Shown one piece after another: positions 9,895 to 61,398 of a DNA stretch of 64,000 nucleotides. The notes under the pieces were generated by a model. It ran no database searches, was not told where the DNA came from, and worked only from the letters and a program-made list of their open reading frames with translations. The position numbers and the translations under genes were made by a program. Position 1 is the stretch's first letter. Every line of letters starts with the position of its first letter. This stretch comes from Planctomycetes bacterium MalM25 (GTDB lineage: Bacteria > Planctomycetota > Planctomycetia > Pirellulales > Lacipirellulaceae): NCBI GenBank assembly GCA_007745835.1, contig CP036424.1:4079968-4143967 (forward strand), written 5' to 3'.

Positions 9895-9896
9895 CG

Positions 9897-12246: not shown

Positions 12247-12342
12247 ACCTCTCATCGAGCGTTTGCTGGACCGCCGAACCGTGGGGGGTTACCCTGCCGC
12301 GGTGCTGGGTTGCCTCTTGAACCGTCTCATCGGGAACTTCTC

Positions 12343-30778: not shown

Positions 30779-31125
30779 ACTGATCCCCAGTTCGTGCTCA
30801 GCAGTGCAGTGTTGGGCCTCTCGGAGGGCTTCCTCCGGTCTCAGATTCAAATCGCGGTCGGTCCCTCGGTCAATGTCATCCCTAATGATTCACAAGTGAG
30901 TCTAGGTGATTGGTCTCATTCTTGTTCGACAAGAGCCGCTGCGCTGTTGCCGGATCGAGCCGCGGGTCGCCAATCCGAGCGATCAGTATAAACAGACGCG
31001 ATTTGGGCCGAGCAGGTCGAGCCTGCCCCGACATGAGATCGAAGCTCCATGCCGTTTCGAAAGTGGTTCGTAGTTACGGACCGCCTTCCCGGCCCGAGTT
31101 TGGTCGTACCGGAAAGGCGGGAGCG
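30779..31125. other. Gene-free stretch of 347 bases
   Basis: This contains the upstream region of the gene starting at 30778 and the tail of the MBL gene region. It also holds most of the left copy of a 39-base direct repeat (31099-31137). Short open frames here have no supportable coding character. AT-rich text around 30870-30910 is the likely promoter zone of the unknown gene. Confidence 0.5.
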
Positions 31126-31137
31126 TTAGACGGCCTT
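31099..31137. repeat. Left copy of imperfect 39-nt direct repeat bracketing the defence genes
   Basis: 32 of 39 bases match the copy at 62388-62426 (core tttggtcg, then cggaaag, cgggag, ttaga and ggcctt). Both copies lie exactly across the stop codon region of a minus-strand gene. Confidence 0.6.
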
Positions 31138-32466
31138 TTTGGCGACCGTAATATCAGAGACCAGATCGTCCGCCAACGCAGCCACCCTGCCTGGCTCGAA
31201 GGTGTGGATTGGCACAATGGTCTTGGGATTGACAGCCCGCACGAACCGGCAGATGTCTTCTTCCAGCAGGTGCCCAGTCGAGTGGACGACCTCGAGCCGC
31301 CCACCGGCTGCGTCGAGCGCCCGTTGGACCGGCTTCCAGCTCGCCTCTTCAAGGTAGCCCATCCATCGTCCGTAGAGGCAGAGCGTCCGCTCGGGTAGCT
31401 CGCCGCCGAAGTCGAGGTCGAGCATCGACTCTCGGAAGATACAGACGTACCGGTCGGGCTCGGCGATGATCTCGCTGACGGGGATTGCATCTTCGCCGTA
31501 GGCATTGATCAGCTTGGCGAACCGCTTGAGCCGACCCCCTTTGGTGACCGACTTAGGCAGGAAGACCCGAACGTCGTGCTCGATCGCAGGGCGTGGCAGA
31601 TCGGTCTCGCTGTGGACCAGCTGCATGACGAACGCCGTGTAGAGATCGATGCAGAACGTCCGGCCCGACGCGATTGCCGCCCGGTAAAACGCCAACAGCC
31701 GATCCGTGTGCTGCGGCGACAGGCAGGCGAGTACGAGACTGTCCGACTCGGCGACGAGCCGGTCGATGTCGGACGCCACCTGCAATTCGGGCCGCGGGTC
31801 GCTGGTCGGCAGTCCGAAGTGGGTTCCCTCGACGAGCAGCGTGTCGATCCGCTTCTTGCGGAGGTCGAAGACCAGGCGGCTCATTTCGAGGTGATTGAGC
31901 CCGTGCATCCTCAGGTCGCCCGAGTAGAACAGCGACTGGCCGTCTGCTTCGAGGAGGAAACCAACCGCTCCGTGGATCGAGTGATCAACGCCGTAGGCGG
32001 TGATCGTGATCTCACCGATCGTGACCGGCTGACCCGGGTTGAGCTGCCGGAACCGCTCACGAGGAAGCTCGGCCTGCCGGGCGAACAGCTTGCCGGCCAG
32101 CATCATCTTGCTCGTGCCGCGGGTGGCGAAGATCGGGATGTCCGGGTGGCTGAAATCGACGAGCCCCGTGTGATCGAGATGGGCGTGGGAGAGCAGGATC
32201 GCGTCGGGGCGATCGACCAGTGAGTCGCTCACGGGGTCGCTCACGGCATCGGCGTCCGGGTCGAATAGTCCCGCCACCTCGGGCATGAGCCCCTCGTCGC
32301 CAAGGGCTTCGACCGTCATCTGGCGGTAACGAAAGGTGTCGGCCGCCTGACGATCCTTGTCGAACAGGGGCAGGCCCAGATCGAGAACGAGGCGGGTCTT
32401 GCCATGGATGACCTCGACGCAGTTGCCACCGACCTCGTGGGCTCCGCGGTGAATGGTGTGCTTCAA
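31126..32466 (-). CDS. Metallo-beta-lactamase-fold hydrolase, RNase J/beta-CASP-like
   Basis: This 446-residue protein has the MBL zinc ligands HAHLDH (94-99), His162 (VDHSIHG), Asp184 (YSGDLRMHG) and C-terminal STGHLLEED and VPIHTFEP. The last two mirror the SGHA and PVHGE motifs of RNase J. A beta-CASP-like insertion spans residues about 205-370 (VLACLSPQHTDRLLAFYRAA). It is therefore probably a nuclease acting on RNA or ssDNA (inference from fold). It is shorter than RNase J (about 550) and has lost that family's C-terminal domain. It is divergent, 413 bases away, from the large ATPase gene at 32880, which suggests joint regulation in a defence cluster. Confidence 0.82.
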   Translation of the reverse strand: MKHTIHRGAHEVGGNCVEVIHGKTRLVLDLGLPLFDKDRQAADTFRYRQMTVEALGDEGLMPEVAGLFDPDADAVSDPVSDSLVDRPDAILLSHAHLDHTGLVDFSHPDIPIFATRGTSKMMLAGKLFARQAELPRERFRQLNPGQPVTIGEITITAYGVDHSIHGAVGFLLEADGQSLFYSGDLRMHGLNHLEMSRLVFDLRKKRIDTLLVEGTHFGLPTSDPRPELQVASDIDRLVAESDSLVLACLSPQHTDRLLAFYRAAIASGRTFCIDLYTAFVMQLVHSETDLPRPAIEHDVRVFLPKSVTKGGRLKRFAKLINAYGEDAIPVSEIIAEPDRYVCIFRESMLDLDFGGELPERTLCLYGRWMGYLEEASWKPVQRALDAAGGRLEVVHSTGHLLEEDICRFVRAVNPKTIVPIHTFEPGRVAALADDLVSDITVAKKAV

Positions 32467-32879
32467 TCGGCTCTCCGGAAGTGCGGTAGTTCAGTCCGCC
32501 GAAAGCGGACCATGGGCTCCACTACTAGTACCCCCGAGTGCTGTCGGACCTCGGGCAGGGGCCGCTGGAGTCGGCGACTCATGATCCGTGGAGAGAGCCA
32601 TCAGACGCCCGTCCGAAGCCGCGTCGGTGGCGATGACCTCAGCGGATTCGCCCCGGGCCTTCGGTGCCGTGGGGGATGCTCCCGCCAACAGCAAGGAGAA
32701 CACGGAAGTCACACCATCAAGAGTCGCAAGGACTGGCTACACCGACGCTCCACGAGGTTCCGAGGACGGTTTCGCACGGGGCTTGCCGGCTAGTTATATT
32801 GACCCCACCAGCAGAGCCCTAAGGGCTTGCGATAACCCCGAAGCAACCCGCTTAGTAATTCTTTTTGCGAGCATGCAGG
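32467..32879. other. Divergent intergenic region between MBL and ATPase genes (413 bases)
   Basis: This probably holds both promoters. A small perfect hairpin (gtccgc, loop cgaaa, gcggac) lies at 32494-32510. Open frames here (32588-32908 plus, 32491-32712 minus) show no coding character or known motif. The AT-richer text just before 32865 is the likely leader of the ATPase gene. Confidence 0.5.
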
Positions 32880-35800
32880 ATGGACGAAGCAGCATCATCG
32901 ACCCTTGAGGATCTTCGCGACTCAATCGAATGGCTGCAAACCGCTGTCGGGAAGATCACCGAGGCAGCGGACTTCGCTCGGGTGCTCGGCGACTCCGGGG
33001 TGTCCGGTTTCGAGGCGACGCTGCAAGATGTTCGGAAATCGCGAGATGTGGTGGTTTCCAACCTCGAGAAGCTGGTCGGACCGGGCTGGCGAGACGAGCT
33101 CGAGCTGGCCAGCCCTGAGGCCTTACTGACGTCCTGCCGCCGGTTTAAGGAGGCGAGAGACTCGGAGCGAGTAGAGGCCCTAGCTCGGGAGACGCTGAGT
33201 GCTCTCGCCGGGGAGCTTGGGAGACATCGCGCGGAGGCGCACCGGTCATTCAAGCCCCGAGTCGAGCAGATCCTGAAAGAGGCAATTCGAGAATGCGAAG
33301 AGCTCGGCAATTCAACGAAGGCTCAACAGCTTCCGCTTCTAAGGCCAGACGGCGTTGCCCGCCTGATGATCAAGTGGCGTACGTCTGACGATGTAATGAG
33401 GGATCAGGAGAGCGCGGCCTGGAAGGCGGCCCTCCCGGCTCTTTCCCAACTCATCGAAGTTGCCGACCTCCTCTGCCCAATCCAGGACGAAGCGTGTGAT
33501 CCAGACGAAGATCAGACGCCCCCGGCGAAACCAGTCCCAGATCCCCCCGAGACGCCCGAGACTCGCACGGAAGTCGATGAACGGGAAGATCGCGACGTGG
33601 CGATTCCTGTCAAGGAGGCAACAAAGCTAGACGGTGCGGCTGGGGGCTTGGGCGGCGGGCTAGGCTCTAAACCGCTTGCGCCAGCGAGCGCGACCCTGTG
33701 CGAGCCGGCTGGGACCTCGGACCCGCGAGGGGAGCCGCTCGCCGACGAATTACCCAAGGAGGCACAGGATCCTGTCTCGACACTGGACGACGAGCAGGAG
33801 CCGCCGCAGTCGGCTGGACAGCAGACAGCGGCCGAACCCGGGACGAAATCGGAAGTCCTTCAAAGAGCGGAAGCGGCTGCGTGGCAAGCGCTGGTCGACG
33901 AGAAGCCGTCGTTGGCGTACCAGATCCTCAGCACCCTCGACGAGGTGTCGACCGACGTCCACCGGACCCCACGGGACCTAGCGGACCTCGTGCTTCTGGA
34001 GCCATCTTTTGTGCGGTCTCCGCAGGCCTTCGCCGAACCGCGTCGGGAAGCCAGCACTCGGTTCGCCAGCTGGTTGACCGGCCTCTCGGACGACGGAATT
34101 GCGACCGCTCACAGAATGGTTGCCTTGGCGGCTTCTTTGGTTCCCGCCCTCGTTTCGGTCCGCTCCGAGGCTTCCGAAGCGCTGGCACCGATCGCCGGAC
34201 TCGAGGCGGTATGGCCCGAGTTTGAGAAGGTCCGTGCGGCGGTCGAGTCGTTCACTAACAGTCGCGTTGAAGTTGCCCCATCAGTCTTTCGTGGCGTGAA
34301 GGACCACGCCGACTGGGATCAAGGATGTGAAGATCGGCGGCGGGAGCTGGACGTTTGGCTCCGTTCGGAGCAGACGGGCAAGCTCATCTACGGGCCAACA
34401 ACAGAGGTATGGCACGCATGGCTCAAAGCGGACGGGCACTTCGGCAAGTTGCTTCATCCGATGGTCGATGGTCAGAATCCGCCGCCTGATCGGCTGCGCG
34501 AGCTGGCCAGGGAATGGTCCTCGAGCTCCTTTGTCGATAAGAAGCTCGCCGAAACCGACCGACAGCTGCGGAAGATGGGGGCCAAGAGAAAACCGATCGA
34601 GGCGAGGGCGAAAGAGGCGGTGCGTCGCAAGGTGAGCCTGGCTCTCCGGCACATCGACGAGTGGCTGAAGCACTTCGAATCCGAGCCGGGTTCGCTGGAA
34701 GGGTATGTCGAGAACCAGATCGAGGAGTGCCGCCATGCAGTGGAGAACGCCGGCCTGCTTGCTGATCCGAGCATCGACCTGATCCGTTGGTCCAAGGAGA
34801 CGCCTTTCGGGGAGGAAGCCCTGAGCGTCACGCAAAGGTTGCTGAAGCGGCTACGCGACTTCATTCACGGCAACAACGCATCGGCGGACGCGGACAATGC
34901 GGTTCTTGACGGTCCAGAAATCCTCCGGAATGCAGACCTCTGCTACGTCGCAGCCTCGGACCCAATGGGAGGAGACCCACACAGGTGGCTTCAGCTGCTC
35001 TGCAAGACGGTCTGCGAGCCGACCGACGAGGACGATTTGTTCTCGTCTCATCTTGACAATGGCAGGCTTTGGGCGGCTGAGTCGCTACAGGACCGCTCGA
35101 GGGCACGCGGGTCCCGATCGCTCGGTGAGGATGACTCGAGGCGGCGGATCCAAGAGTCAAGGAAACAGCACCGAGTCAACCTGCAGAGGAAAGTCGAGGC
35201 CGCCGAGCGGGACATTGTTCGGGCGGTTCGGTTAGACCTCTTGGGGGATTCCGAGAGGGAGCAGCTCACCGGCGAGGTGACGATCGTTCGCGAGGGTCTC
35301 GACCGAGTCTTGGACGTGCCGAAGGCGGCCGCGCGAATAGACCGCGTCCGCAGCGAGATCGGAGAGAAGGAACAGATCCGCGTATCGGAGCTGAGGCAGG
35401 AGGCTGCGCGATTGCGTGAATCGGCACGCGGTGGTTTGGTGGGTTCGTCCCTGCACGACGATCTCGACAGAATCAACGAGACGCTCGAGAGCGGAGACTA
35501 CGTTGCGGCGGCCGAGTACATCGATATCGTGCAGCGCGGCGAGTCGCTAAGCGAGAGCGGCGAGCGTCACGCCGATTCCTTCGAGGTGTTCTTCCCCAAG
35601 TTCGTTGAGGCTTTTACCGATTGGTGCGAAAGCGGCCATGGCGCCACCATCGACATGGACTTCATCAAGTCGGTGGCCGTCGGGCGCCCCATCGGCCCGC
35701 TTCGCTTCGACGGCGTCGCCAAGCCACGCCTGCAAGAGGCCGAGACCCTGCTCAACGCCTGGCGTATCATGAAGCGGGGCGGAAACGCATCGAGCATCGG

Positions 35801-38369
35801 CAGTGAGCTATCCCGCTTTCTGAGCGCGATCGGCATGCGAGTGAGCAACGTAAAGGACTTCAACGTCCAGGGTCGCAAGGCGAACTGGGTGACCAAGATC
35901 GAATGCGAGACGATCCAGGATCGATCGATCTGCATCGTTCCGCGGTTCGGCTCCGAGGCGGCCGGTCGATACAACGTCTGCGGCATCCACGGCCGACCCT
36001 CCGGCACCGACTTGGTTGCAAGAGTCGAGAAAGTCACGGCGCGGGGCCCGACCTTGGTCCTCTACTTCGGCCGCATGTCTGTCAGGGATCGTCGGGAGCT
36101 GGCCCGCCACCGCCCCGACGCGGACCGCCCGCTCATCGTCTTAGACGAGGCGCTTGTTGCCTTCTTGGCGGCGAGTCGGGAGGCGAGGCTGCGGGCGATG
36201 TTCGCATGCACGCTGCCGTTCGCGTGCGCCCAGCCCTACACCGACACGGCTTCAACGGTCCCCCCGGAGATGTTCTTCGGCCGCGAGGACGAGTTTAACG
36301 ACGTCTTCCGCCCAGACGGGACAAACCTGGTGTTCGGCGGTCGGCAGCTGGGAAAGTCCGTGCTGCTCAGAGAGGTCGCGAACCGACGCCACGACGAGCA
36401 ATCGGGGTGCATCGTGGCGTGGTTGGACCTTAAGAACAAGGGAATCGGTACGACGCGGGCCCCCGGCGACCTCTGGCAGATAATCGGAGAGGAGCTGCAT
36501 CGGCTCAGAGTCCTGGAGCGGGAGGCGTCCTCCGCGTCCCGGATCGCGGGTCGGGTCAAGGAGTGGCTGGACGACGCCGCGCAGCGAAGGGTGCTCCTGC
36601 TGCTGGACGAGGCCGACGCATTCTTCGAGCAAGACAGCAAGTCGATGTCGTCAACGAAAGGGGGAGCGGCGTTTCCGGTCGTCTCTGAGCTGAAGGGGTT
36701 GATGGACGAAACGAATCGGAGGTTCAAGGTAGTCTTCGCGGGATTGCACAACGTGCAGCGCGCGGCGCGAGACCCAAACACGCCGATCGCCCACCTAGGG
36801 ACCCCCGTCAATATCGGTCCGATGTACGACAGCGGGCAGTGGAGAGAAGCCAAACGCCTCGTCGAAGAGCCGCTCTCGCGTCTGGGGTACCGCTTCGAGA
36901 CTCCCGAACTCAGTATGAGGGTGCTCTCCCACGCCAACTTCTACCCCTCTCTGATTCAGGTCTTCTGCAAACACCTCCTCAACGAGCTCCAGCGGTCGCG
37001 GGGCCAGGTCGATTACAGCGTGGCGCCGCCGTACACGATCACCGCGGCCCAAGTCGAGAAGGTGTACGGCGATAGAGGCCTGCAACAAGAGATCCGAAAG
37101 CGTTTCGAGCTCTCTCTCCTCCTAGACAACCGCTACCGCGTGCTGGCTTTAATCGTCGCGTTAGAGAGCATCGAGCTCGCGGAGGAAGGGAGCGGCAGCG
37201 ATGGGGTCATCGACGGATTTTCTGTACCGTGGCTTCGCAAGCAGGCGCTCGGGTGGTGGCCGGAGGGATTCCGAGAGGACAGCAGTCACGAGCAGCTCCG
37301 CATCCTCCTCGACGAGATGGTGGGGCTGGGCATCCTGCGGGCGATCGGGCCTGACTCTTACCGGCTGCGGAGCAACAACATCCTGCGGTTTCTTGGGAGC
37401 AGGTCGGAGATCGAAGAGAAACTGCAGGATGCCGCCAGCGAAATGCCGCCGGCTCCCTACGAGGCGTCCTCCTTCCGGCGATCGCTGCCGGAAAGCGGAG
37501 AAGTGCTCAGCCCGCTCACCGCGGCACAGGAGGCTGACCTGCTGGACAGGAGCAACGGTGTCTGCGTCGTCTCGGGCTGCTGCCTCTCGGATCTTGACAG
37601 GTTAGTGGACGGGGTCCGGGAGCTGGCAACACACGACGTTGCTGTCTGCGAGATCTCGGACGCTACCTTGCTGCAATCGTTTGCCAAAGCGCTCGAGGCT
37701 ATCGACGCGGAGAAAAAGGGGGATGGACTCACCCTGTGCTTGGTGAGGGGGGCGTGGAGGCCGGAGTGGGTTGAGCACGCGGTGAGCCTGGTTCGTCGGA
37801 AGACAAGCTCGAAGAAGAGTTTCTTGCGTGTCATCTTCTCAGCGAACCCCTCGCTGCTCTGGGAATGGGGCCGACAAGATCCGAAGACCCCTGGGGTCGT
37901 GGAGATCCAGCTTCGTCCCTGGTGCGTCGCGACCCTGCGCCGATGGCTGACGGAGCAGCAGTACGGGGCAGACACCGTTACGCCAAAGGGTCTACAAGAG
38001 ATCATGTCCCTGACAGGGGGCTGGCCGACGCTGCTGTATCGATTCCACGACAGGTGTGGGCGCACTACCCAGCCGCTCTTGAGACTGATGGAGGACGCCC
38101 GCGACGCCTGCATGATGGACTCGTCTTCCCTTGAACAAGAGTCGCCTTCGCTGCCGATAGCGGCGATTCGCGACATCGCCAACAACTGGGGGATGGAATT
38201 CGAGCCCGAAATGATCGGGGAATTGGTTGGGGAGTTGACCGGCAGTCTTGATGGGGACCGGTTGACCGAGTGGGCGGAGTGGCTGGGCTGGCTCCGCATT
38301 GGCGATGAAGCGGATCTCTACAGACTAGATACTGCGGTCGCGGGAGTGTTGAAGGAGCAACCGGTGTGA
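32880..38369 (+). CDS. Giant P-loop ATPase with long N-terminal helical region (candidate defence sensor)
   Basis: This is a 1829-residue protein from ATG 32880; TTG at 32865 is an alternative. Residues 1-200 are helical. Residues about 203-325 are a Pro/Glu-rich disordered linker. Residues about 325-1120 are long charged helices with coiled-coil character and a strand-rich insert near 1010-1080. An archaeal-ATPase/STAND-like domain follows: MFFGREDEF (near 1128), Walker A GGRQLGKSVLLRE (1154), Walker B VLLLLDEADAFF (1237) and sensor-like FKVVFAGLHNVQ, then a winged helix. A second, P-loop-less ATPase-like domain starts near 1558 (VCVVSGCC, FLRVIFSANPSLLWEW, TGGWPTLL). The stop overlaps the next gene (GTGA). 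The organisation resembles NTPase defence sensors, but I do not recognise the family. Confidence 0.75.
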   Translation: MDEAASSTLEDLRDSIEWLQTAVGKITEAADFARVLGDSGVSGFEATLQDVRKSRDVVVSNLEKLVGPGWRDELELASPEALLTSCRRFKEARDSERVEALARETLSALAGELGRHRAEAHRSFKPRVEQILKEAIRECEELGNSTKAQQLPLLRPDGVARLMIKWRTSDDVMRDQESAAWKAALPALSQLIEVADLLCPIQDEACDPDEDQTPPAKPVPDPPETPETRTEVDEREDRDVAIPVKEATKLDGAAGGLGGGLGSKPLAPASATLCEPAGTSDPRGEPLADELPKEAQDPVSTLDDEQEPPQSAGQQTAAEPGTKSEVLQRAEAAAWQALVDEKPSLAYQILSTLDEVSTDVHRTPRDLADLVLLEPSFVRSPQAFAEPRREASTRFASWLTGLSDDGIATAHRMVALAASLVPALVSVRSEASEALAPIAGLEAVWPEFEKVRAAVESFTNSRVEVAPSVFRGVKDHADWDQGCEDRRRELDVWLRSEQTGKLIYGPTTEVWHAWLKADGHFGKLLHPMVDGQNPPPDRLRELAREWSSSSFVDKKLAETDRQLRKMGAKRKPIEARAKEAVRRKVSLALRHIDEWLKHFESEPGSLEGYVENQIEECRHAVENAGLLADPSIDLIRWSKETPFGEEALSVTQRLLKRLRDFIHGNNASADADNAVLDGPEILRNADLCYVAASDPMGGDPHRWLQLLCKTVCEPTDEDDLFSSHLDNGRLWAAESLQDRSRARGSRSLGEDDSRRRIQESRKQHRVNLQRKVEAAERDIVRAVRLDLLGDSEREQLTGEVTIVREGLDRVLDVPKAAARIDRVRSEIGEKEQIRVSELRQEAARLRESARGGLVGSSLHDDLDRINETLESGDYVAAAEYIDIVQRGESLSESGERHADSFEVFFPKFVEAFTDWCESGHGATIDMDFIKSVAVGRPIGPLRFDGVAKPRLQEAETLLNAWRIMKRGGNASSIGSELSRFLSAIGMRVSNVKDFNVQGRKANWVTKIECETIQDRSICIVPRFGSEAAGRYNVCGIHGRPSGTDLVARVEKVTARGPTLVLYFGRMSVRDRRELARHRPDADRPLIVLDEALVAFLAASREARLRAMFACTLPFACAQPYTDTASTVPPEMFFGREDEFNDVFRPDGTNLVFGGRQLGKSVLLREVANRRHDEQSGCIVAWLDLKNKGIGTTRAPGDLWQIIGEELHRLRVLEREASSASRIAGRVKEWLDDAAQRRVLLLLDEADAFFEQDSKSMSSTKGGAAFPVVSELKGLMDETNRRFKVVFAGLHNVQRAARDPNTPIAHLGTPVNIGPMYDSGQWREAKRLVEEPLSRLGYRFETPELSMRVLSHANFYPSLIQVFCKHLLNELQRSRGQVDYSVAPPYTITAAQVEKVYGDRGLQQEIRKRFELSLLLDNRYRVLALIVALESIELAEEGSGSDGVIDGFSVPWLRKQALGWWPEGFREDSSHEQLRILLDEMVGLGILRAIGPDSYRLRSNNILRFLGSRSEIEEKLQDAASEMPPAPYEASSFRRSLPESGEVLSPLTAAQEADLLDRSNGVCVVSGCCLSDLDRLVDGVRELATHDVAVCEISDATLLQSFAKALEAIDAEKKGDGLTLCLVRGAWRPEWVEHAVSLVRRKTSSKKSFLRVIFSANPSLLWEWGRQDPKTPGVVEIQLRPWCVATLRRWLTEQQYGADTVTPKGLQEIMSLTGGWPTLLYRFHDRCGRTTQPLLRLMEDARDACMMDSSSLEQESPSLPIAAIRDIANNWGMEFEPEMIGELVGELTGSLDGDRLTEWAEWLGWLRIGDEADLYRLDTAVAGVLKEQPV

Positions 38370-39520
38370 ACGGTAGCCCCTGGACGCTCCCCGGGCCGAG
38401 TCGCTTCTTGATGGGCATCTTGGCAGCGATCGAGTCTGGTGAATGCGTCGTCCTCCAGGCGCCGCCTCACACTCCGCCCGGCATCGCCGAAGCCTTGCAA
38501 CGGATGTCGCGGGATTCGGACGCCCGCTACTGGCACCGTGTCCGAAGCAGCGAGTTCGACGCCGAGGACCTCTACGCCATCGTCGACCTGCTGGCTCGCA
38601 GACTGCTTCCGGAGGCTGCGAGGGAATCGTCTTGTGACATCGGCAGCTTCGTGGAGTCCCTCGGCGACAAGGTCGTCTGGATAGAGATCGATTGCGTGAA
38701 TCGGTGGAGCCATTGGCTTGAGTTGATTGAGGGGCTCCGGACCGAGCTGCACAGGCTCCATGAAGCGGACCGGCCGGCGTTTTGCTTCCACGCGGGACCG
38801 TCGCTCTCCGTTCCGTCCGAAGAGATAGGCGTTTCAATCCATCGGTTTCGAGGCGTGCTGTCGAGGACGGACGTGACGACTGCCGTTCGGGAACACCGCA
38901 GGGCCGCACGGCCATCTGCGGCAACCTGCCTTGCCGAGGAAACCGCCGTGGCTGTGGCGGCAATACTGGCGGGCGCCGATTACCGACTAGCGGAACACCT
39001 CGCGGCGCTGGATCTCAGAGACCTGTTGGAACCCTTGGCCGCATTGAACGCCTACGCCGCGGGGCAGCCCTGGCTGGGCGGAACGGACGAGCCGGACTGG
39101 GCACGGGGCACGTTGGACACGATCGGAGGCGAGAGTGTGGTACATAGCGCGCACCCTTCAATAGCCGGGAGACCGCAGCATATCGGGAGATTGGTTTGGG
39201 AGGGTCAGCTTGGGGTTCTATTCCCTTACTTGGAGAAACGGCGCCTAGCACTGTTAGAGATTGTGGGTCCCCAGCTGAGGCTGCCGGTGGAGACGCCGGC
39301 GGGTGTTGTGACCGATCCGTTGGATCTAGAGCTTGGGCCGCTGGTGTACCACCTCAAGGGCCGCGGGGTACCGAGGGGGGTCTGGAATGAGCTGGTGACC
39401 CTACGCAATGTGAGGCATCTTCTGGCTCACGTTGAGGTCGTGCCGGTCGATACGGTGCTGGATTTGCAACGGGCTCCAGACTGGGACGACGGCGTACCCG
39501 CCATCCGAGGGTCGCTATGA
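38366..39520 (+). CDS. Partner of the giant ATPase, degenerate NTPase-like protein
   Basis: This 384-residue protein starts at GTG 38366, overlapping the upstream stop by four bases, so synthesis is coupled to the giant ATPase. The N-terminal half is laid out like a P-loop domain: RFLMGILAAIESGECVVLQAP, where Walker A should be, then VVWIEIDCVNRW at the Walker B position, and RPAFCFHAGPSLSVPSE like a sensor strand. It lacks the GK(S/T) and the acidic pair, so it should not hydrolyse ATP. The C-terminal part (LEKRRLALLEIVGPQLRLP, RGVWNELVTLRNVRHLLAHVEVV) is helical and resembles an RNA/HEPN-like helical bundle only loosely. I do not recognise a family. It is probably a subunit of one complex. 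Confidence 0.7.
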   Translation: MNGSPWTLPGPSRFLMGILAAIESGECVVLQAPPHTPPGIAEALQRMSRDSDARYWHRVRSSEFDAEDLYAIVDLLARRLLPEAARESSCDIGSFVESLGDKVVWIEIDCVNRWSHWLELIEGLRTELHRLHEADRPAFCFHAGPSLSVPSEEIGVSIHRFRGVLSRTDVTTAVREHRRAARPSAATCLAEETAVAVAAILAGADYRLAEHLAALDLRDLLEPLAALNAYAAGQPWLGGTDEPDWARGTLDTIGGESVVHSAHPSIAGRPQHIGRLVWEGQLGVLFPYLEKRRLALLEIVGPQLRLPVETPAGVVTDPLDLELGPLVYHLKGRGVPRGVWNELVTLRNVRHLLAHVEVVPVDTVLDLQRAPDWDDGVPAIRGSL

Positions 39521-51778: not shown

Positions 51779-54700
51779 TCAACCCTCTCGAGGATCGATC
51801 ACGTACACGTGCATCCCGTGATCGCCGAGAGAAACGTCTCGGTCGAGAACGCGCAGTGCCTCGGATTGAACGAGCGGGGCCGCCGCGAAATCGAACGGGC
51901 ACGATCCTCGGACCCTGGTGAACCCCATCCCTTGGTCGAGGATCACGCGGATCGTTTTCGACTCCCCCCAGAAGAGATCGAGCGACCGGGCGTGCGGGAC
52001 GTCCTTCGTTGCCACGGCGACTCGCAGGTCGATCCGGAAGCCTTTGCCGAGCAACCCTTCGAGGACCTTCTTCTGCTTGGCGAGATCGTTCCAGTTGTGC
52101 TCGACATACCGACCGACACGGCGCTCGGTCACGGCGCACGTTCGTACGAGCAATGAGGGGGACCGACCCGAAGCGTTGGCAAACGGTCGGAGAACCTCGT
52201 AGAGAGCTTTCGCGGTTAGGGGCGACTTCAGGTACCGGTCACGGTACTCGATCCGAGACGGGGGTTCGGCTAAGGCCCGATCAAGAGCCCCCGACATTTC
52301 TCGCAGCGACGTCCAAAACCTGTCGCCGAGAGAACTCATCGGACCGTTCCATTCCTCACCGACGACCCCATAGTCGCACTGGGTCGCTCGGGCTTCCTGG
52401 AGATCGGGCTGCTTGAGTGCAACGCCGGGCAACTCGTTGGCGTCCGGCGACTCACCGCGCACGACTGGATCGACCCCTCCAGCTCCGCCCCAATCGGGGG
52501 ACGGGTTGAGAGCCGTGTTGTTGAACACAGCCCATTCCACGGCCCCGTCTGGACCAGAGAGCCTCGCGCCCAAGACGCCCCCTTGCCTAGCAAGCTGCTT
52601 AGGATCCACGCCGGTGAGTTCAATCCCGAACAGCTCGCATCGCGACCACAGCTGGTGCCGAACGGGCCACGGCAAGTCTTCGTAGAGCGAGGTCGGCAGG
52701 ACGAGGCAGACCGCGGTTTTCCTTTCGCCGATCCGCAATGAAGATAGGCTCCGCCATAGCGGCCAGTGATCGATCTCCCAATCGTCGGATTCGCCCGCGA
52801 CAACGATCTCGACTCGCGTGTACTTCGCATTCGTCAGACGCTGCGTGACCGCATCCGCCAGACTGAGGCTCTCGTGTCGGGTGCGATCGCCAAAGGCGCT
52901 GTACCGCTCGGGCACCTCGAAGAAGGAATCGTACTCGGCGCCGAACCACTCGGCCGCGCTGCCGCGATCGAGCTTGTCGATGTAGCGTTGGGTATCGAAG
53001 TCGAGGAGGCAAGCATGACAAGCCCTTTCGCACTGGCAGTCGAGAAGCTCACGAGCTTCCTCGATCAATCCGCGGACGTCGGTCCCAACCTCGGCCGCGT
53101 AGCCGGCTCCGCCCCCAGCCGTGTCGAAGAGGTAGATGTCTCGGAAGAGGATGTCGCTCTCTCGGTTATCTTGTACCGCCCAACCGATCTCACGGTCTTC
53201 GATGCCGATGCGCCGCGCAAAGGCGGTGCGTAAAGCTATCGCCAACGAATAGGCCACTCCCTCGGGGAGCGTCGCGTGTGGTGTGCCCGGGTGGAGCAAC
53301 CGCAACTGAAACACGTCCGTCGCGTCTTCACCTCCCAACCAGAGGTTGCGCTGGATCGCGAATTGCTCGTCGGCGCCGGTGCAGACATCGGTACTCTCGG
53401 ATTGCCGTCCGGTACGAAGCCGCAAGTGTGGCCCGTCTCGGTCGAAGGGCGCCGGTGTCCCGGAGGCATTGGGGTCCTGCTCGGATGCGCCGCGTCCGCA
53501 CCTCAAGCAGACCGCGAAGCCCTGTCCGTTGGCCCCCTTGTTGTAGTGAAAGACGCGACCCGCCGGATCGTGCCGGAATCGTCCCAATCGCGGATCGGGC
53601 AAGCTGATCCACTCACCCTGGCACGACAGGCGGGGTTCGGCGGCAGGCATGAACACAGCGCGGTCGCCGACTGTCTTCGGCCTGCCGGTGCGGATGTCGA
53701 CGGCGAACCCTGATGGCTGGATGTAGGAGTTGTAGATCACGCGTCCTGTTTCGCATCGGGGGCAAGTCGATGGCCGTGAGGTGTTGCTGCCCGATTCGCC
53801 GCACCCTTCGCAGAACCAGAAGATGCGGATCGCTTGGGCTTCTGAGAAGGACTCGTCTTGGGGCGGTAGTCGCCAGTGCATCGTGAGTCCGCTGGATAGA
53901 TAAGAAAGCCCGTCGATAACGATGGAGTTGCCCGGCGCGTACTCACGGATGGCGATGGGGAGCTCACGCGAAGGGTAGTCCTGTCGCTGCTGCCCATTGT
54001 CTTCACGGGATTGCGAAGCCTGGGCCTGTCTCTGCTGACCGACTTGGATCGACTCGATGCTGGTGTTGACGAAGGGGAGGACATGCACCGGGAACCCGTG
54101 CGCCGGCAGGAACCCGCTGCTCACCAGGTCCTTGAGCAGGTACTCGTCGTTGTGGCGCCGCAGCTGAACCGTTAGCGCCCGCTGCTCCGAGGACGACTTT
54201 TGTCCGGGCGTCGGCGGGCCCCCCGCAAGAGCCAGCTCCGCTTCGAGCGATTCGCTCCCGACTCGCCAAGTTGCAGCGATTTCGTCGATGGCCAGGGCGG
54301 CGCGGTCGAAGAGAGCCCCGATGCTTTCGGACGCCAGGGCCGTGCGGGCAACGATACGAGCAACGCTCCGACGGATGACTTCATCCGACTCGGCCGGCCC
54401 ACGCAGCCAGGCTACCAGCTTGTCGGCGTGTGCCGGCTCTTCGTCGCGTGAGAACATCCATTCGCTCGTTGTCTTGATCGCATTATCCAGTCCGAGCGCA
54501 CGCAAGTAGGTCGCGAGCAAGAACGCCTGCACATGGCGTTGGACGATCCGAGCGCTGTCCAGTCCAACCCGCGGGACGTGGATCGGCGTGGTGAACGGCC
54601 AGAGAGGATTATCGAAGACCGCTTGGCCGTGAGGCTGATCTTGGCACAGGGTTAATGTTGTGGCCCGGTCGATCCCGCGTCGCCCAGCCCGCCCGGACCG

Positions 54701-57700
54701 TTGGAGCCAGTTCGCGGGGCCAGGCGGCACGTTGTTGAGCGCAACGACGGTTAGCCCTCCGATATCGATCCCCATCTCCATCGTGGTCGAGCAGCTCAGG
54801 AGGTTGGTCTCGCCACGGCGGAATCGTCTTTCGAGATGCTGGAGACGGGCTTTATTGATCTGCCCTGAGTGCTCGGCGATTTCGAAGTACTCAGACCACG
54901 CCGCGATCCGATCGTTGAACTCATTCCAGACCCCGGCCCCGCGAGCCGACCGGACGATCGGGTCGGCGTTGAGCCAGGCCGTGATCTCCGACTGAGGAAC
55001 AGGGGTCCCCTCTGACTGGCGGAACGGGAACTTCAGACGTGGCATCTCAACATCTTGGCATCTCCCGAAGACCCTCAGCGTCCGCTCGGTGTGGTAGGGC
55101 GAAACCCCGTTGAGCGTGTGAGATAGCAGCCGCCTGGTCACCGGACAAAACGGCCCCTTGGCGACCAAGCGAACCTCGGCTCTAGCGAAGTCAAGCCGCC
55201 GACCGTCCCCAGAGTGGTCGAAGACGCCCGCGTTCACCAAAGCCCTCCATGCCTCCCTAAGGATTCTGTCGACTCGTTGCTGATCCGCTGACACGTCCTC
55301 CCTCAGGCGGAGACCGAGACGGAGCAACTGCACGATCCGCTGACCGGTTCTCCTGCCGGGTGCGAGGGTGGGCCATCGGACGGCTCGCGTCGAGACTGCC
55401 TCGGCATCGGGCTCCACCAGCTGCTTGGGCCGAAAGTTGAGACCGATCCACCGGAGTATTTCTTCACTGACGCGGATGCCGTAGCGGTCCCGAATGAAGA
55501 AGTCGATGAACAGCGAAAGGAAGGCACGCCAGTTTTCTTGATCGCCACCCGCTTCCTCCCAGTCTTGAGGCGGCCGTATCGTGTCGATCCCCGCGAAATG
55601 AAGCGAGGCCAGTCCCAGGGTCTCGAGTGTCGCCCCGCGTCGTGGCCTCCTGGCGAGCTCGCGGAACAAGAGCATCTCCGCCAAGACTCTTGGGGCGAGG
55701 CTCGAGGGATCGTATCGCGACTTCGAGGCTTGTGGGATGAACCGCTCGACCGGCATTTGGCTTGCGAGGCTGTCGACGAGTTCAGGCCAGGAAATCGCGG
55801 AGACGGGCCCGTTGATCTTGCGACGCTCTTCCTCAAGTTCGTCTTCCAGCGACTCGCAAATGGAGCCGCCTCCGAGCGTCTCGATTGCCGCCTCCAATTG
55901 CGCCACTTTCGCCAGATCCCCGCGACCGACTTGTGACCACAACTTGTGATAGATGAAACTTCGGACGTACCCTCGCTCCGACTCGAACTGCATGCGGCTC
56001 GCGAATCGCGCGGTCCCTTGTCGGGAGTCGCTGAACGTGATCATCTGCCGGCCTCCGAAAGGAAGCTCGGCTTCCTGATCGGGCTTTGGCGGGGTGTGCC
56101 CGAGCAGAGCCGGGACAGCGATCCCCAGGTAAAAGGGCGCCCCCACTCGGAACGGCGTGAAACGGGGCGCCCTCGCCGTCGAGCGTTCACCGCAGGTCAC
56201 GCACCTGGGTCGGTTGTCTCGCTCGTCGCGTCGGGCGAGCCTGACACTTACGCTGCCACCACCGGCGGGGTTGATCCCGCCGGTCAAGGCGTCGTAGGTC
56301 GCGGGGGCGTCGGTGTAGTCGTTGCCCTCGCACGAACAGATCAGTTCGTAGTCACTTTGGGGATCGGGTTCATCGGTGACCTCGTCGAGATCCTCTTCGG
56401 GTTCCTCGTCCGGATCAATCTGGAAGTCATTCGCAGGCGTGTTCGGAACAACCCGCCTCGGACGCAGGGCATTCTCAGCGGTCTCGGCGGCCGCCAAGTA
56501 GACTTCACCGCAGCCGCGGCAGACGACCACTTCGAAGACCTGACTCCCGCAGTGTTCGCACCGTTCGCGTGAGGAGAAAAAGAGCTCGCCGAAGGGCCAA
56601 TCGGCGGGTGCCTGCGTCGATTGCTTCCCGCGGCACTGCGCGTTCCAACAGGCCCAGAGTCCGGCCTGCGTCCTCATGAAAAAGTGGCCCCGGAGCGGCA
56701 GCAAGGCGCCTTGCGGTCCCTCGTCCGACAGGTGGTCGAGGTACTTGAGAGTCGTTTCGGAGCTGGCGGAGCCGAGAAGGTCGCCGATCTGACTGAGTGG
56801 GAGCGGGCTCTCGGTCAGCGTGTGGCGGAGGTCGCGGATTACCTTGCTCGACGCGAGTTGATCGAAGGTCGCGTCGTCCGCTTCCGAGCCAGCCAGCGCT
56901 TCCAGGGTGGGCAGGGGTCCATTCGCTCGCTCGTAGCCATCCAGCTCCGGCGTGACACGCCGGCCGCGGACAACGCTTACCTGCGATGAATCGATCCCGG
57001 CCAGGTCGGCCAGGTACTCCTGCAACTGTGTGTCGGCGTCGCCTTCGGAGGAACTGATCGTCGCGGAGGTCGCGATAAAATGCACCTTGTCCGGAGTGAC
57101 TTCGAACGCCTCCATGACCCGGCGAAGCAGGAGCGACACCTCCGCGGCGTTGGAGCCTAGGTAGGTGTGGGCTTCGTCGAGGACGATCCAGCGGAGAAGC
57201 CCTTTCGACTTCTCGACGATTGGGGCGTCGATGTTGCGCACGAGCATGTACTCCAACATGGTCGCGTTCGTGACCAAGATCGGCGGCGGAGAGTCCCGCA
57301 GCAACTTCCGGGAGAGCACCTCCTCCGGGGTCTTGCGTTGGGCTTCGTTCTTGTGCTCTTCGGGCGTCGCCCCGTTGTAGAGACAGAACCGGACGCCCCC
57401 GCCGAGGCCCGCCGTCCATGCCGCGAGCCGCTCGCGCTGCGAGTTGATCAACGCGTTGAGTGGGTACAGGAAAAGAGCGCGGACGCCTTCGAGCGGCTTC
57501 CGGCGCGACGCCTCGAACTCGCGAACGAGGTCGTCCAAGATCGGGATCAGAAAGCACTCGGTTTTCCCGGACGCCGTGCCGGTGCTAACGATCGTCGATC
57601 GAGCCGGTTCCTGCCTGAGCGTTTCCCAGGCTTCGATCTGATGCTTGTAAGGGTGCAAGGTTCGCGCGAAACGGCGGTCGGCGTGCTCTTCGGGCGGCTT

Positions 57701-57946
57701 GTCGAGCAGGTCAATCGTCAACGGGTGGAGGTCCACCTCATCCAGCCTCCGCGGCTGTGACTCGTACGCGAAGAGTGACTCAAAGACGGGCTCACCGAGC
57801 AGGCTACCGTTGGCAGGCGGGAGCTGCTCAAGGCGTTGCCGGACATACTCGCGCAGTCCGGGGTGTGCGGGCTGGAGATCGCCAACGGTCGCCCTCGCGG
57901 CTCGCTGGCAGAGGGTTTCCGCGATCGTAGAGAAGTAGGCAGACAT
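51779..57946 (-). CDS. druE: Druantia DruE helicase with DUF1998
   Basis: This 2055-residue protein starts at ATG 57946. The N-terminal helicase has Walker A STGTASGKTE (121-130) and DEAH (IVLDEAHTYLG, 254-264). ITFSDSRQGTARFA, SCSTTMEMGIDIGG and motif VI QRSGRAGRRG (near 1080) complete the SF2 core. The C-terminal DUF1998 carries FDTAGGGAGYAAEV and the Cys cluster DCQCERACHACLLDFD (near 1638). Size and layout match DruE of Druantia (established family description); DrmB of DISARM is much smaller. It lies 62 bases downstream of the druH-like gene, giving the druH-druE order of Druantia type III. It would act on phage DNA. Confidence 0.88.
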   Translation of the reverse strand: MSAYFSTIAETLCQRAARATVGDLQPAHPGLREYVRQRLEQLPPANGSLLGEPVFESLFAYESQPRRLDEVDLHPLTIDLLDKPPEEHADRRFARTLHPYKHQIEAWETLRQEPARSTIVSTGTASGKTECFLIPILDDLVREFEASRRKPLEGVRALFLYPLNALINSQRERLAAWTAGLGGGVRFCLYNGATPEEHKNEAQRKTPEEVLSRKLLRDSPPPILVTNATMLEYMLVRNIDAPIVEKSKGLLRWIVLDEAHTYLGSNAAEVSLLLRRVMEAFEVTPDKVHFIATSATISSSEGDADTQLQEYLADLAGIDSSQVSVVRGRRVTPELDGYERANGPLPTLEALAGSEADDATFDQLASSKVIRDLRHTLTESPLPLSQIGDLLGSASSETTLKYLDHLSDEGPQGALLPLRGHFFMRTQAGLWACWNAQCRGKQSTQAPADWPFGELFFSSRERCEHCGSQVFEVVVCRGCGEVYLAAAETAENALRPRRVVPNTPANDFQIDPDEEPEEDLDEVTDEPDPQSDYELICSCEGNDYTDAPATYDALTGGINPAGGGSVSVRLARRDERDNRPRCVTCGERSTARAPRFTPFRVGAPFYLGIAVPALLGHTPPKPDQEAELPFGGRQMITFSDSRQGTARFASRMQFESERGYVRSFIYHKLWSQVGRGDLAKVAQLEAAIETLGGGSICESLEDELEEERRKINGPVSAISWPELVDSLASQMPVERFIPQASKSRYDPSSLAPRVLAEMLLFRELARRPRRGATLETLGLASLHFAGIDTIRPPQDWEEAGGDQENWRAFLSLFIDFFIRDRYGIRVSEEILRWIGLNFRPKQLVEPDAEAVSTRAVRWPTLAPGRRTGQRIVQLLRLGLRLREDVSADQQRVDRILREAWRALVNAGVFDHSGDGRRLDFARAEVRLVAKGPFCPVTRRLLSHTLNGVSPYHTERTLRVFGRCQDVEMPRLKFPFRQSEGTPVPQSEITAWLNADPIVRSARGAGVWNEFNDRIAAWSEYFEIAEHSGQINKARLQHLERRFRRGETNLLSCSTTMEMGIDIGGLTVVALNNVPPGPANWLQRSGRAGRRGIDRATTLTLCQDQPHGQAVFDNPLWPFTTPIHVPRVGLDSARIVQRHVQAFLLATYLRALGLDNAIKTTSEWMFSRDEEPAHADKLVAWLRGPAESDEVIRRSVARIVARTALASESIGALFDRAALAIDEIAATWRVGSESLEAELALAGGPPTPGQKSSSEQRALTVQLRRHNDEYLLKDLVSSGFLPAHGFPVHVLPFVNTSIESIQVGQQRQAQASQSREDNGQQRQDYPSRELPIAIREYAPGNSIVIDGLSYLSSGLTMHWRLPPQDESFSEAQAIRIFWFCEGCGESGSNTSRPSTCPRCETGRVIYNSYIQPSGFAVDIRTGRPKTVGDRAVFMPAAEPRLSCQGEWISLPDPRLGRFRHDPAGRVFHYNKGANGQGFAVCLRCGRGASEQDPNASGTPAPFDRDGPHLRLRTGRQSESTDVCTGADEQFAIQRNLWLGGEDATDVFQLRLLHPGTPHATLPEGVAYSLAIALRTAFARRIGIEDREIGWAVQDNRESDILFRDIYLFDTAGGGAGYAAEVGTDVRGLIEEARELLDCQCERACHACLLDFDTQRYIDKLDRGSAAEWFGAEYDSFFEVPERYSAFGDRTRHESLSLADAVTQRLTNAKYTRVEIVVAGESDDWEIDHWPLWRSLSSLRIGERKTAVCLVLPTSLYEDLPWPVRHQLWSRCELFGIELTGVDPKQLARQGGVLGARLSGPDGAVEWAVFNNTALNPSPDWGGAGGVDPVVRGESPDANELPGVALKQPDLQEARATQCDYGVVGEEWNGPMSSLGDRFWTSLREMSGALDRALAEPPSRIEYRDRYLKSPLTAKALYEVLRPFANASGRSPSLLVRTCAVTERRVGRYVEHNWNDLAKQKKVLEGLLGKGFRIDLRVAVATKDVPHARSLDLFWGESKTIRVILDQGMGFTRVRGSCPFDFAAAPLVQSEALRVLDRDVSLGDHGMHVYVIDPREG

Positions 57947-58008: not shown

Positions 58009-61000
58009 TCAGGCCGACTCATCGGTCGCTATCGCCTCCAACCAGTCGGGTTGCTCGTCGCTACGGCGACCAATCAAGCGAATCATCGCGAGCTGGAAGG
58101 CGTAGTCGAACCAGGTGGCGTCGAAAGAACGGAGGCGTTGATACCGGGTGAGCTGAGACGGATTGATCGGGATTCCGTAGACGGCATGTATCGCCGCCAA
58201 CGAGGGACCGTTGATGACTGCCCACTCGTGCGAGTAGCGGTAGGTGTTGAGCAGGCCCGGCGTGCCCTCAAGAAGGCCGCGCGCTTCCGACCCATACTTG
58301 GGGCGCTCGCTTGGCCAGGTCTGGCGACTATCAAAACGCTCGTGGCGTGAGACCAAGGCATTGAATCCGACCGAGTAGTCGGAATCGGTCGAGGAGAGTC
58401 GAAGCTGGGTCGGCGGCTTGTCTACTAGTCCTGCCGTGAATAGGCAGGCCGATACCACCCCGGCCGACGGGTGGTGATGCCACGCACAGTCGACGAAATT
58501 GGCAATAGGAAGGCCGGCATGCTGATTCGCCAGCTCGGCCGACAGACCAGCTTGCTCGAATTGCGTGTGCCGGTGCCTCATCAAGCGGGCAGTAGCGCGG
58601 ACCCAAGCCTCGATGGGAACCAGGCACCACAAGAACGGCAGTTCTTCCAAACGCCCCCAGAGCGCAGCATCGGACGGGTTAAGAAGCCCGACCCGGGCGG
58701 CGGCGATGGGATTGCGTATGAGCCCGGTAACGGCTTCATAGGTGGTGATCGGCAACTCGATCGATGCCTCGGTCACCGCATCGACTTTCGCCCAATCCGG
58801 GGCGCCGAAGTCCTCGGTAACCCGGGTGTAGAAAGTGTCCCAGACCTCTCGTCTTTTCCGCTCTTCACGGATCGTTGAGACCTCATCGAAGCTGTAATCG
58901 GCTTGCGATTTTTCGGGGGGCGCGTCGGGAAGCTCTCCGGCAGTGATGCGTAGCGGTCGCAACAGATCCCCGGAAGCCGTTCGGCCCGTGACCAGGTAAT
59001 AGCCCGGCTCCGCGTCCGCCAGATCGATACGCCAAACCCCTGGCGATTCCTCGGCAACGCAGTGCGGGGGCAGCACGATCTCTGGATCGTTCAGCGCGAT
59101 GACCCCCATCCTCGCGGGATCGTCGGCGAGGGCGTCCACGAGATCGGTGTCTTGGAGACGGACCCGCTCTTGATCGGTTTGGTCGGCCGCTGCCGGCTGA
59201 AGTTTGTAACCGTACCGGCCGATGCGAAGCTCCATCACGCGATCATGGGTATTTCCGATCGCGACCGAGAGTCGGATCAAGCAATCGCGGTCGTCCGTTT
59301 CCGCCAGGAGTCCTGTCGCGCGTTCTTTTGCCCGAGAGAGCGGGTACTCCCAGACCCCGTCGGAAGCCTCACGGAACGCATCGATCACCACGTCGTTCGC
59401 GACATCGATGAGAAGAGGCCGCTTGCCGTCAGGTCGTACAACACGGATCCAAAGGCCGTCGAACTGCTCGATCGCGATCCCTCTCTTAGCGTCGATCGAT
59501 GTCCCGGCGACGGTGATCAGTTGACACGACACCGTTGGCGTAACGAGCACCAACGTCGCGACGCAATCGTTCGGAAAGCTCAATCTCGTCGCAATCCGGT
59601 CGGGCCGTTCTCCATCGAGGGTGACGTCCACGACGAGGTCATCGCCGCTTGCAGTCGCTCGGGCGCTCACCCCCGGAGAGTCGGCAAGGCTGAAGCCGCA
59701 TGTCCCGATATTACGGAACGTCCAGCGACCCCGATGCTGATCGCGTCCGGGCCTAGTCTCGAGTCGGAAGTCTGGCGGTAAGATGGTGGCCCGCGTCTGC
59801 AGCTTCGTCTCACCGGCCACCGAGGCTCGGAGGATCACGTTGCCGACGCAGTCGCTTCCCATCCTCTGCCAATCGCCGCCGCGGATCGGACGCCAACGCA
59901 CCTCTTCCCGTGTCAGCTTCCTGGATTGGTCGGTGGCGTCCAGTCGAAGCTCAAACACCTCGGGGACGTCGAGCCATGCTTCGGATCCACCGGTGCCGGA
60001 GCACCAACGTCTGCCTCGGAGTTCGTAGAGGAACTCCGTGCTGTCGCTGTGGCCGGTCCGCACGCAGTAGGTCGTATCGTCGTGCTCGATCTGTGCAGAA
60101 CCTTGGATGCGGAAGAGCCTCCGACCCTCGATCTGGCTGGGCAGTTCGTCCGCCCGCTCCGCGTCGATGAGGGCGGACTCGGGCGAAGCGACCAAGACCG
60201 AGGGCTGACGCGTGCTCACACTACCCACTCCGATCAGACTTTGCGGGGCGTCTTCGCGAAAGACCCAGGGGGAGTCCGGGAGCATGTCACCCCCGGGAAG
60301 AATCGCGTCGAGAACGTGTTCCGTACCGCTGCGGACCTCGAGTCGAGTTGGGTGCTCCGTACTGACCGGGACGATCCGCGCACTCCCAGCGGGACTCAGG
60401 CTTAGTTCAGGGTCCTCGCTGGACGCCGTGTAGGGTTGTGTGAATTTACAAACCGCAGCGTGCTTCGAACCGGCCCTTAAGAAGCCGGTCATGCGGGGAA
60501 AGAGCGGGGCTCCGGGCTCGAGGCCACACAGAGATCGAAAACGAGCGGCGTTGATCCTGGGCGGAAACTGGAGCCGGCGTTCGAGGTAGTAGCCTTGCTC
60601 ACCCTCGGTGAGGCCGGTGATCACCGCGAGAAGCTGACGATCAACGGCGATCGGTTCTGGGGAGTCCAACAAGGAGAGCAAGACGGCTTGCCCTTCTTGG
60701 TCCTCAAGGCGGAACGGGAGTTGGTGATGCCAATCCCGCGAATTCTCATCGAGCCAATCCCGACGGCTGACTTGCTGCTGTGCCGCTTCCGTGCAGTCCT
60801 TGCGTATCTTCGCGACCGCCTCGACGGTTCGTGCAAGCAGGTGGAGGAATCCGGGGGTGCGGAGGGTTTCTGGCAACCGAGTTCGATGCTGTTCGATGAT
60901 CCGATCGACAGACTCTTCGGGGAACTGTTCGTGCTCCTGCAAACTTTGTTTGAGCAGGCGGCTGAGGCTGGCTCCGTCGTTGCGGAGCGTATTCACCGGG

Positions 61001-61398
61001 AAGCCGCCCTGGCAAACCAGGGTCGCGAGGAATCGACGAGAAGATCCTGTGTTGATCACTGCCAGGTTCCACCAAGCGAGACCGCTCAACGTGTAGTCGC
61101 ACAAATCGGATCGGGTCCAGACGCTCGGATCACCGCCGATACCGTTAAGGATGGTGACCCACTCCCACGGACCACGCTGGTGCTCGATACGGAACCACTC
61201 GGAGGCAAACAAGCAGAAGGCGGCGTGCTCGCTCGATGTGCGGAGGCGACCAGCGAGCGTCAGACGATTCCGGAGCTCGATGCGGATCTGCTCGATCTCG
61301 TGCTCGGTAACCCGGTAGGCGTAGAGCGGAGAACCATCCGCGGACTTCAGTCCGGCGCGGTTAATGACCGAGGAGAGGATCTCGTGACACGTTGGCAC
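58009..61398 (-). CDS. druH: Druantia DruH-like protein (STY4851/ECs_5259 family)
   Basis: This 1129-residue protein starts at GTG 61398 and has no recognisable enzymatic motif. Its opening (CHEILSSVINRAGLKSADGSPLYAYRVTE) and segments such as FASEWFRIEHQRGPWEW and LSGLAWWNLAVINTGSSRRF match the STY4851/ECs_5259 group as I recall it, which is DruH of Druantia type III. The middle is beta-rich, and the C-terminus is Trp-rich (WLEAIATDESA end). It is followed by druE with a 62-base gap, so both share one transcript. Its biochemical role is unknown; DruH and DruE together suffice as the type III system. Confidence 0.82.
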   Translation of the reverse strand: MPTCHEILSSVINRAGLKSADGSPLYAYRVTEHEIEQIRIELRNRLTLAGRLRTSSEHAAFCLFASEWFRIEHQRGPWEWVTILNGIGGDPSVWTRSDLCDYTLSGLAWWNLAVINTGSSRRFLATLVCQGGFPVNTLRNDGASLSRLLKQSLQEHEQFPEESVDRIIEQHRTRLPETLRTPGFLHLLARTVEAVAKIRKDCTEAAQQQVSRRDWLDENSRDWHHQLPFRLEDQEGQAVLLSLLDSPEPIAVDRQLLAVITGLTEGEQGYYLERRLQFPPRINAARFRSLCGLEPGAPLFPRMTGFLRAGSKHAAVCKFTQPYTASSEDPELSLSPAGSARIVPVSTEHPTRLEVRSGTEHVLDAILPGGDMLPDSPWVFREDAPQSLIGVGSVSTRQPSVLVASPESALIDAERADELPSQIEGRRLFRIQGSAQIEHDDTTYCVRTGHSDSTEFLYELRGRRWCSGTGGSEAWLDVPEVFELRLDATDQSRKLTREEVRWRPIRGGDWQRMGSDCVGNVILRASVAGETKLQTRATILPPDFRLETRPGRDQHRGRWTFRNIGTCGFSLADSPGVSARATASGDDLVVDVTLDGERPDRIATRLSFPNDCVATLVLVTPTVSCQLITVAGTSIDAKRGIAIEQFDGLWIRVVRPDGKRPLLIDVANDVVIDAFREASDGVWEYPLSRAKERATGLLAETDDRDCLIRLSVAIGNTHDRVMELRIGRYGYKLQPAAADQTDQERVRLQDTDLVDALADDPARMGVIALNDPEIVLPPHCVAEESPGVWRIDLADAEPGYYLVTGRTASGDLLRPLRITAGELPDAPPEKSQADYSFDEVSTIREERKRREVWDTFYTRVTEDFGAPDWAKVDAVTEASIELPITTYEAVTGLIRNPIAAARVGLLNPSDAALWGRLEELPFLWCLVPIEAWVRATARLMRHRHTQFEQAGLSAELANQHAGLPIANFVDCAWHHHPSAGVVSACLFTAGLVDKPPTQLRLSSTDSDYSVGFNALVSRHERFDSRQTWPSERPKYGSEARGLLEGTPGLLNTYRYSHEWAVINGPSLAAIHAVYGIPINPSQLTRYQRLRSFDATWFDYAFQLAMIRLIGRRSDEQPDWLEAIATDESA

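Follow-up and report, generated by a model that had tools for sequence, protein, structure and literature searches.

The window analysed here is a stretch of 64,000 nucleotides from Planctomycetes bacterium MalM25 (host genome of 4.72 Mb, single contig), in which a gene encoding a giant ATPase is followed by a gene encoding a smaller partner. As judged from sequence comparisons, there is strong evidence that the giant and its partner constitute a conserved two-gene operon that is both old and mobile. This pair is rather likely to be an anti-invader module that has a HEPN RNase as its effector and that would serve, behind systems built around a helicase, as a second and lethal layer. The predicted effector is the partner, which with its HEPN Rx4H motif appears better placed for this role than the product of a neighboring MBL gene. 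The features concerned are listed in Table 1.

Table 1. Features of the window discussed in the text (positions are those of the window)
Feature	Position	Strand	Basis or remark
Integrase	27900-29288		adjoins tRNA-Arg
RNase J-like MBL protein	31126..32466	-	Lactamase_B_2 9.6e-19; PDB EF2904 8.9e-26, RNase J 3.9e-10
Giant ATPase, 1829 aa, ATG start	32880..38369	+	ORF; Pfam AAA_22 2.2e-6; relatives in many phyla
N-terminal region of giant, mainly helical, residues 1-987, variable among homologues	32880..35840	+	alignments
Alpha/beta domain directly before ATPase, residues ~988-1098	35841..36173	+	AF2 secondary structure
Walker A GGRQLGKS, residues 1153-1160	36336..36359	+	alignment
Walker B LLLLDEAD, residues 1239-1246	36594..36617	+	alignment
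Second AAA+-like module without P-loop, residues ~1540-1785	37497..38234	+	AF2 model, Foldseek to tandem AAA+ proteins
Partner, 384 aa, GTG start; degenerate ORC-like AAA domain and C-terminal HEPN-like domain	38366..39520	+	
HEPN-like domain of partner, residues ~262-368	39149..39469	+	HEPN_Swt1 matches, hhalign
Rx4H motif R350-H355	39413..39430	+	47/47 aligned copies; 8/8 independent plasmid partners
DruE3, Druantia III helicase, associated defence gene	51779..57946	-	PADLOC DruE3 2088 bits
DruH3, Druantia III associated defence gene	58009..61398	-	PADLOC DruH3 196 bits

Alignments and structure prediction together show that the giant has the predicted make-up of an ORC/Cdc6-like AAA+ protein in which the ATP site is intact and a second AAA module is degenerate. 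As initially annotated, this 1829-residue protein contains an intact ATPase domain (FFGREDEF, GGRQLGKS and LLLLDEADAFF, at residues 1132-1249). Residues G1153, G1154, R1155, G1158 and K1159 of Walker A and D1243, E1244 and D1246 of Walker B are invariant in 24 sequences. The AF2 model of residues 757-1829 (1073 aa, pLDDT 83) matched tandem AAA+ proteins (Rix7, Cdc48) and Orc1/Cdc6 (1.4e-5) in Foldseek; these matches identify the P-loop-less domain already noticed behind the ATPase as a second module of AAA type. The helical region described before the ATPase is present too, and an alpha/beta domain with conserved residues G1024 and D1089 lies between the two. This helical region is a putative sensor or scaffold, a role that fits with the finding that residues ~240-830 also occur as separate proteins of 860-1000 aa in Planctomycetes. 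Such stand-alone versions of the N-terminal helical half were observed at four planctomycete loci (L113, L114, L115 and L118), and at L113, L114 and L118 they are followed by TPR or STAND-like/NTPase genes.

The start of the partner gene overlaps the stop of the giant gene by four bases, and both reading frames are as originally described. The partner had been viewed as a degenerate NTPase. This holds for its AAA domain: Foldseek searches with the whole chain (AF2 model, pLDDT 88) gave ORC/RFC matches dominated by this domain, which is ORC-like and lacks a P-loop. However, the C-terminal HEPN-like domain had been overlooked. This C-terminus is probably a HEPN RNase domain. R350 and H355 are its only fully invariant residues (47 of 47 sequences), and their context, LRxxRNxLAHxE, corresponds to the Rx4H motif of HEPN RNases. 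HEPN_Swt1 was the top Pfam family for 12 of 45 partner C-termini, the best value (0.0012) being under the curated cut-off, and other HEPN-type families (DUF4145, HepT-like and pEK499_p136) were also among the Pfam matches of these 45 C-termini; the window's own partner had no Pfam HEPN match. Furthermore, hhalign against four true Swt1-HEPN domains gave a score of 27.4 (P 2.9e-4) with the motif aligned, the maximum for column-shuffled controls being 15.9. The AF2 model places helices at residues 270-303, 323-330 and 337-354 of this C-terminus. When the HEPN profile was run against PDB sequences, only weak matches appeared, probably due to chance (ribosomal S15, for instance).

Relatives of the giant were retrieved by a profile scan of GTDB contigs with an alignment as query (144 found, 80 loci kept); a contig scan queried with the single giant sequence found none. 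The homologues are typically 1600-2450 aa long, reaching 3100-3270 aa in alphaproteobacteria. About 690 residues separate the GGRQLGK[ST] loop from the C-terminus in nearly all of them, and the N-terminal part is very variable. Clustering of flanking genes showed that in 48 loci the gene immediately downstream of the giant is a partner homologue, and partner HMM matches were found beside 54 of the 79 giants included in a tree that spans about 15 phyla. Eleven plasmid loci that were outside the training of this HMM served as an independent test, and eight of them carry the partner directly downstream with its motif intact. According to RefSeq annotation, several plasmid pairs have gaps of -1 to +11 bases between the two genes. 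The partner is also present in two loci from a viral collection (L146 and L147). Hence, the ATPase and its partner recur together in unrelated genomes, which supports this part of the initial annotation. The giant itself has a patchy distribution, as 3 of 197 relatives carry one, and it was found on 27 plasmid records, five of them conjugative. In L007 and several other loci the giant had been taken for a solo gene; this was rejected after an HMM search of all ORFs, which detected the partner there, L007 being a locus from the host's own taxonomic order.

Some of these loci have further particularities. On the conjugative Agrobacterium plasmid pTiCFBP4996 (L157), the giant-HEPN pair is immediately preceded by a WYL gene and immediately followed by ThiF and patatin genes. 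In L061, L042, L063, L070 and L100, the operon runs on into several more genes of the same strand. A cyanobacterial giant (L036, ORF 6698-14053) carries a complete sigma-70 factor (regions 1.2, 2, 3 and 4) at its N-terminus; a transcription factor joined to an ATPase in this way is striking.

One actinobacterial clade lacks HEPN and has, in the partner slot of 7 of 7 loci, a beta-CASP protein of 680-700 aa that is of the aCPSF1 type (193 bits). Its gene overlaps that of the giant by three bases in L097 and L103. This protein occupies the position of the partner and speaks for a slot downstream of the giant that would hold an RNase. Two other observations weigh on the opposite side: cyanobacterial giants have no HEPN partner, which counts against the anti-invader reading of the pair, and some copies of the giant are surrounded by housekeeping genes, such as that of L007, which lies among glycogen genes and adjoins glgC; this counts against a role in defence.

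Several giants are linked to known defence systems. In alphaproteobacteria, a single reading frame combines an N-terminal pPIWI-RE part (X 7e-21, MID 2e-13, RNaseH_pPIWI_RE 1.7e-32) with the ATPase as its C-terminal part; the RNaseH_pPIWI_RE domain is absent from the window giant. These fused giants are preceded by PprDinG (575 bits) and followed by the HEPN partner, and plasmid annotations agree with this order. Elsewhere the pair adjoins Druantia genes, the order being DruH-DruE-giant-HEPN in L088, giant-HEPN-DruH-DruE in L159 and DruE1, PD-(D/E)XK, giant, HEPN in L078, and in L146 the C-terminus of DruE lies near giant-HEPN. Moreover, several cyanobacterial giants lie next to a PLD-SNF2 helicase that resembles NF042964 and DrmD. 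When PADLOC families were compared between near and far neighbors of the giant, no clear enrichment next to it was found. The giant of the window is separated by about 12 kb from the Druantia genes, which are on the opposite strand. Both points count against the anti-invader reading. We put forward more tentatively, at somewhat less than even chances, that the giant is the core of an undescribed portable immune module, which would plug into various systems of helicase or Argonaute-like type, namely Druantia, pPIWI-RE (by fusion) or PLD-SNF2, and relay detection to an exchangeable RNase, HEPN in most lineages and beta-CASP in the actinobacterial clade.

In the mechanism that we propose for the pair, the giant and the AAA domain of the partner would assemble together. 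The trigger would be phage or plasmid activity, probably perceived as aberrant DNA or as a helicase-bound intermediate from a co-resident system, and it would cause an ATP-driven rearrangement of the giant-partner assembly. Once paired, the HEPN domains would cleave RNA (tRNA or mRNA) and thereby bring the growth of the infected cell to a halt. By analogy, the module may be a lethal second layer behind Druantia, pPIWI-RE or PLD-SNF2. Such a logic has been proposed for auxiliary effectors of Dnd and BREX (PMC10853773, PMC12839542), and recurrent recruitment has been shown for nuclease-protease pairs (PMC12799240).

An overlapping two-gene operon found on plasmids and integrase-linked islands could also be viewed as a toxin-antitoxin or plasmid maintenance system, especially as HEPN domains are frequent as toxins (PMC3710099). 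The giant would then restrain a HEPN toxin and stabilise islands and plasmids rather than sense phages. We consider this unlikely, since the giant is far bigger and more variable than an antitoxin, its ATP site is strictly conserved, it can be fused to pPIWI-RE, and HEPN can be swapped for other nucleases or missing. It is more doubtful still that the giant serves mobile elements in DNA replication, repair or partition as an ORC/Cdc6-like factor, with a structural partner and a non-catalytic Rx4H helix, even if the helicase links and the ORC/Cdc6, RFC and tandem AAA+ proteins matched in Foldseek go in this direction. A factor of this kind would hardly be so rare and patchy among relatives, nor would the sole invariant residues of the partner's C-terminal domain be an R and an H of catalytic type. 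That a different RNase fold can take the place of the partner also suggests a nuclease role.

The initial annotation had proposed a trio, in which infection would be sensed by the ATPase together with its partner and the RNase J-like MBL protein would be the effector. Its description of the MBL gene was accurate, as this gene is divergent from the giant, with 413 bases between them, and this arrangement favors the trio. So do an MBL gene located 120 bp upstream of the giant in L043, the beta-CASP MBL directly after the giant in the actinobacterial clade and the fact that MBL nucleases are among the effectors that AVAST, Hachiman and Lamassu can exchange (PMC12799240). The metal motif HxHxDH of the window protein is present as SHAHLDH, and its match to the RNase J family TIGR00649 (52.8 bits) does not reach the curated cut-off of 400. 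We tested the trio via homologues of each gene and rejected it for the window MBL; as a whole, it has a low probability. Near-full-length homologues of the MBL protein (44-48% identity in G022, G073, G170 and G183 and 30% in G057) belong to five other genomes in which the giant was sought and not found. At L136, L137, L139 and L140, the MBL homologue has a WYL regulator no more than about 2 kb away, often along with PD-(D/E)XK-like genes. The host itself has a second copy (L134:12843-14294), 87% identical, 3.1 Mb away and without a giant; it is 230 bp from a different tyrosine integrase, which suggests that it is part of an integrase-linked cassette. On these sequence grounds, the MBL gene is best regarded as independent cargo, outside the pair. 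Moreover, the window MBL is only about 25% identical to the actinobacterial MBLs, over part of the length, and the latter belong to a different subfamily. The proposal of an MBL effector thus fails for the window gene and is borne out in part by the distantly related beta-CASP MBL of the actinobacterial partner slot.

The association of an ATPase with HEPN is an already known design, described for DUF499-HEPN and STAND-HEPN in the 2013 HEPN survey (PMC3710099), and giant-HEPN is therefore counted as a variant of it. Among the HEPN RNases of the Swt1/Abi2 group, which include the DUF499 ATPase-HEPN systems (Hma/BREX-related; PMC3710099, PMC12839542), an ORC/Cdc6-type AAA+ ATPase is also joined to a HEPN RNase and likewise tied to helicases in defence loci. 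However, in giant-HEPN the HEPN domain belongs to a protein other than the ATPase and follows a degenerate AAA domain, the giant is neither DUF499 nor BrxC, and no methyltransferase is required. BrxC, PglY and DUF499 gave no PADLOC, NCBIfam or Pfam match. BREX resembles the pair in associating a large ORC/Cdc6-type ATPase, BrxC, with a P-loop-less STAND/ORC protein, the inactive-STAND BrxB (PMC12839542), but none of PglZ, BrxA, BrxL and BrxX was seen, PglZ having no match among the window proteins scanned, and the partner of the giant carries HEPN. AVAST type 1 (Avs1: MBL nuclease, protease, STAND) also has a large ATPase near an MBL-fold protein; by contrast, no protease was found, the ATPase is near the C-terminus, and the MBL protein is RNase J-like and unlinked. 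None of the three window proteins matched an Avs model, and PADLOC as a whole gave them no match at E<=0.1. The alphaproteobacterial giant is fused behind pPIWI-RE and accompanied by DinG and a preceding gene, as in the three-gene pPIWI-RE system (PMC3702460), whereas the window giant has no PIWI; the 2013 paper on that system mentions neither ATPase nor HEPN. Druantia III (DruH-DruE), which adjoins giant-HEPN in several loci and is present in the island of the window, is known to have two components, neither of them a giant or a HEPN protein (PMC13316683).

As first annotated, the trio corresponds to no named system: PADLOC, NCBIfam and Pfam gave no named defence family, and the giant had AAA_22 as its only Pfam match, with none in PADLOC or NCBIfam. 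Nor did the ATPase match a housekeeping family, which had been named as a point that would tell against a defence role. The giant-partner pair is not described in the passages searched of papers on HEPN (2013), NTP-dependent systems (2020), Dnd (2024), BREX (2026), DefensePredictor (2026) and nuclease-protease pairs. In the databases and open-access literature searched, whose coverage is partial, no description of the giant family, of its pPIWI-RE fusion or of the RNase exchange was found, and the novelty of giant-HEPN is provisional. If the proposed reading is true, this pair would be an immune module without a name that is widespread, with about 15 phyla and also plasmids carrying it, and that is missing from the 2023 PADLOC library. 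DNA-targeting systems that are not related in other respects would then have taken up one large ATPase time and again, among other ways by fusing it to a prokaryotic PIWI protein, the role of which has so far only been predicted. This reading would also lead to testable claims, namely on how DNA-targeting systems could be backed up by an RNA-cutting toxin and on the swapping of RNase folds behind one sensor.

The surroundings agree with the integrase-bordered island with other defence systems that had been annotated. The integrase lies by a tRNA-Arg gene, and around the three genes the island holds a Cas4/DruK-like PD-(D/E)XK gene, type III R-M genes, a UvrD-type helicase and Druantia III, whose assignment by PADLOC is based on the presence of both DruH and DruE. 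A second copy of the tRNA-Arg 3' end with at most one mismatch was sought genome-wide and none was found, hence no attachment repeat could be shown. Between the integrase and the MBL gene, positions 29540-30850 encode a 436-aa protein without family match. Downstream of the partner, a minus-strand ORF (39695-40747) contains a PD-(D/E)XK-like segment (TEVDAVLSWEKPTPTTVFLEWKL) without Pfam match; its start is uncertain because its 5' part overlaps the next gene. The UvrD-type helicase (49421-51496), directly after the type III R-M genes, has a weak N-terminal match to HigB/RelE-like toxins (Pfam 0.0021) and a 37% homologue in L107. Next to Druantia, a short ORF (61643-62146) is 42% identical to part of a 1116-aa protein of L096 and is probably the C-terminal remnant of an SF1 helicase, a decayed gene.
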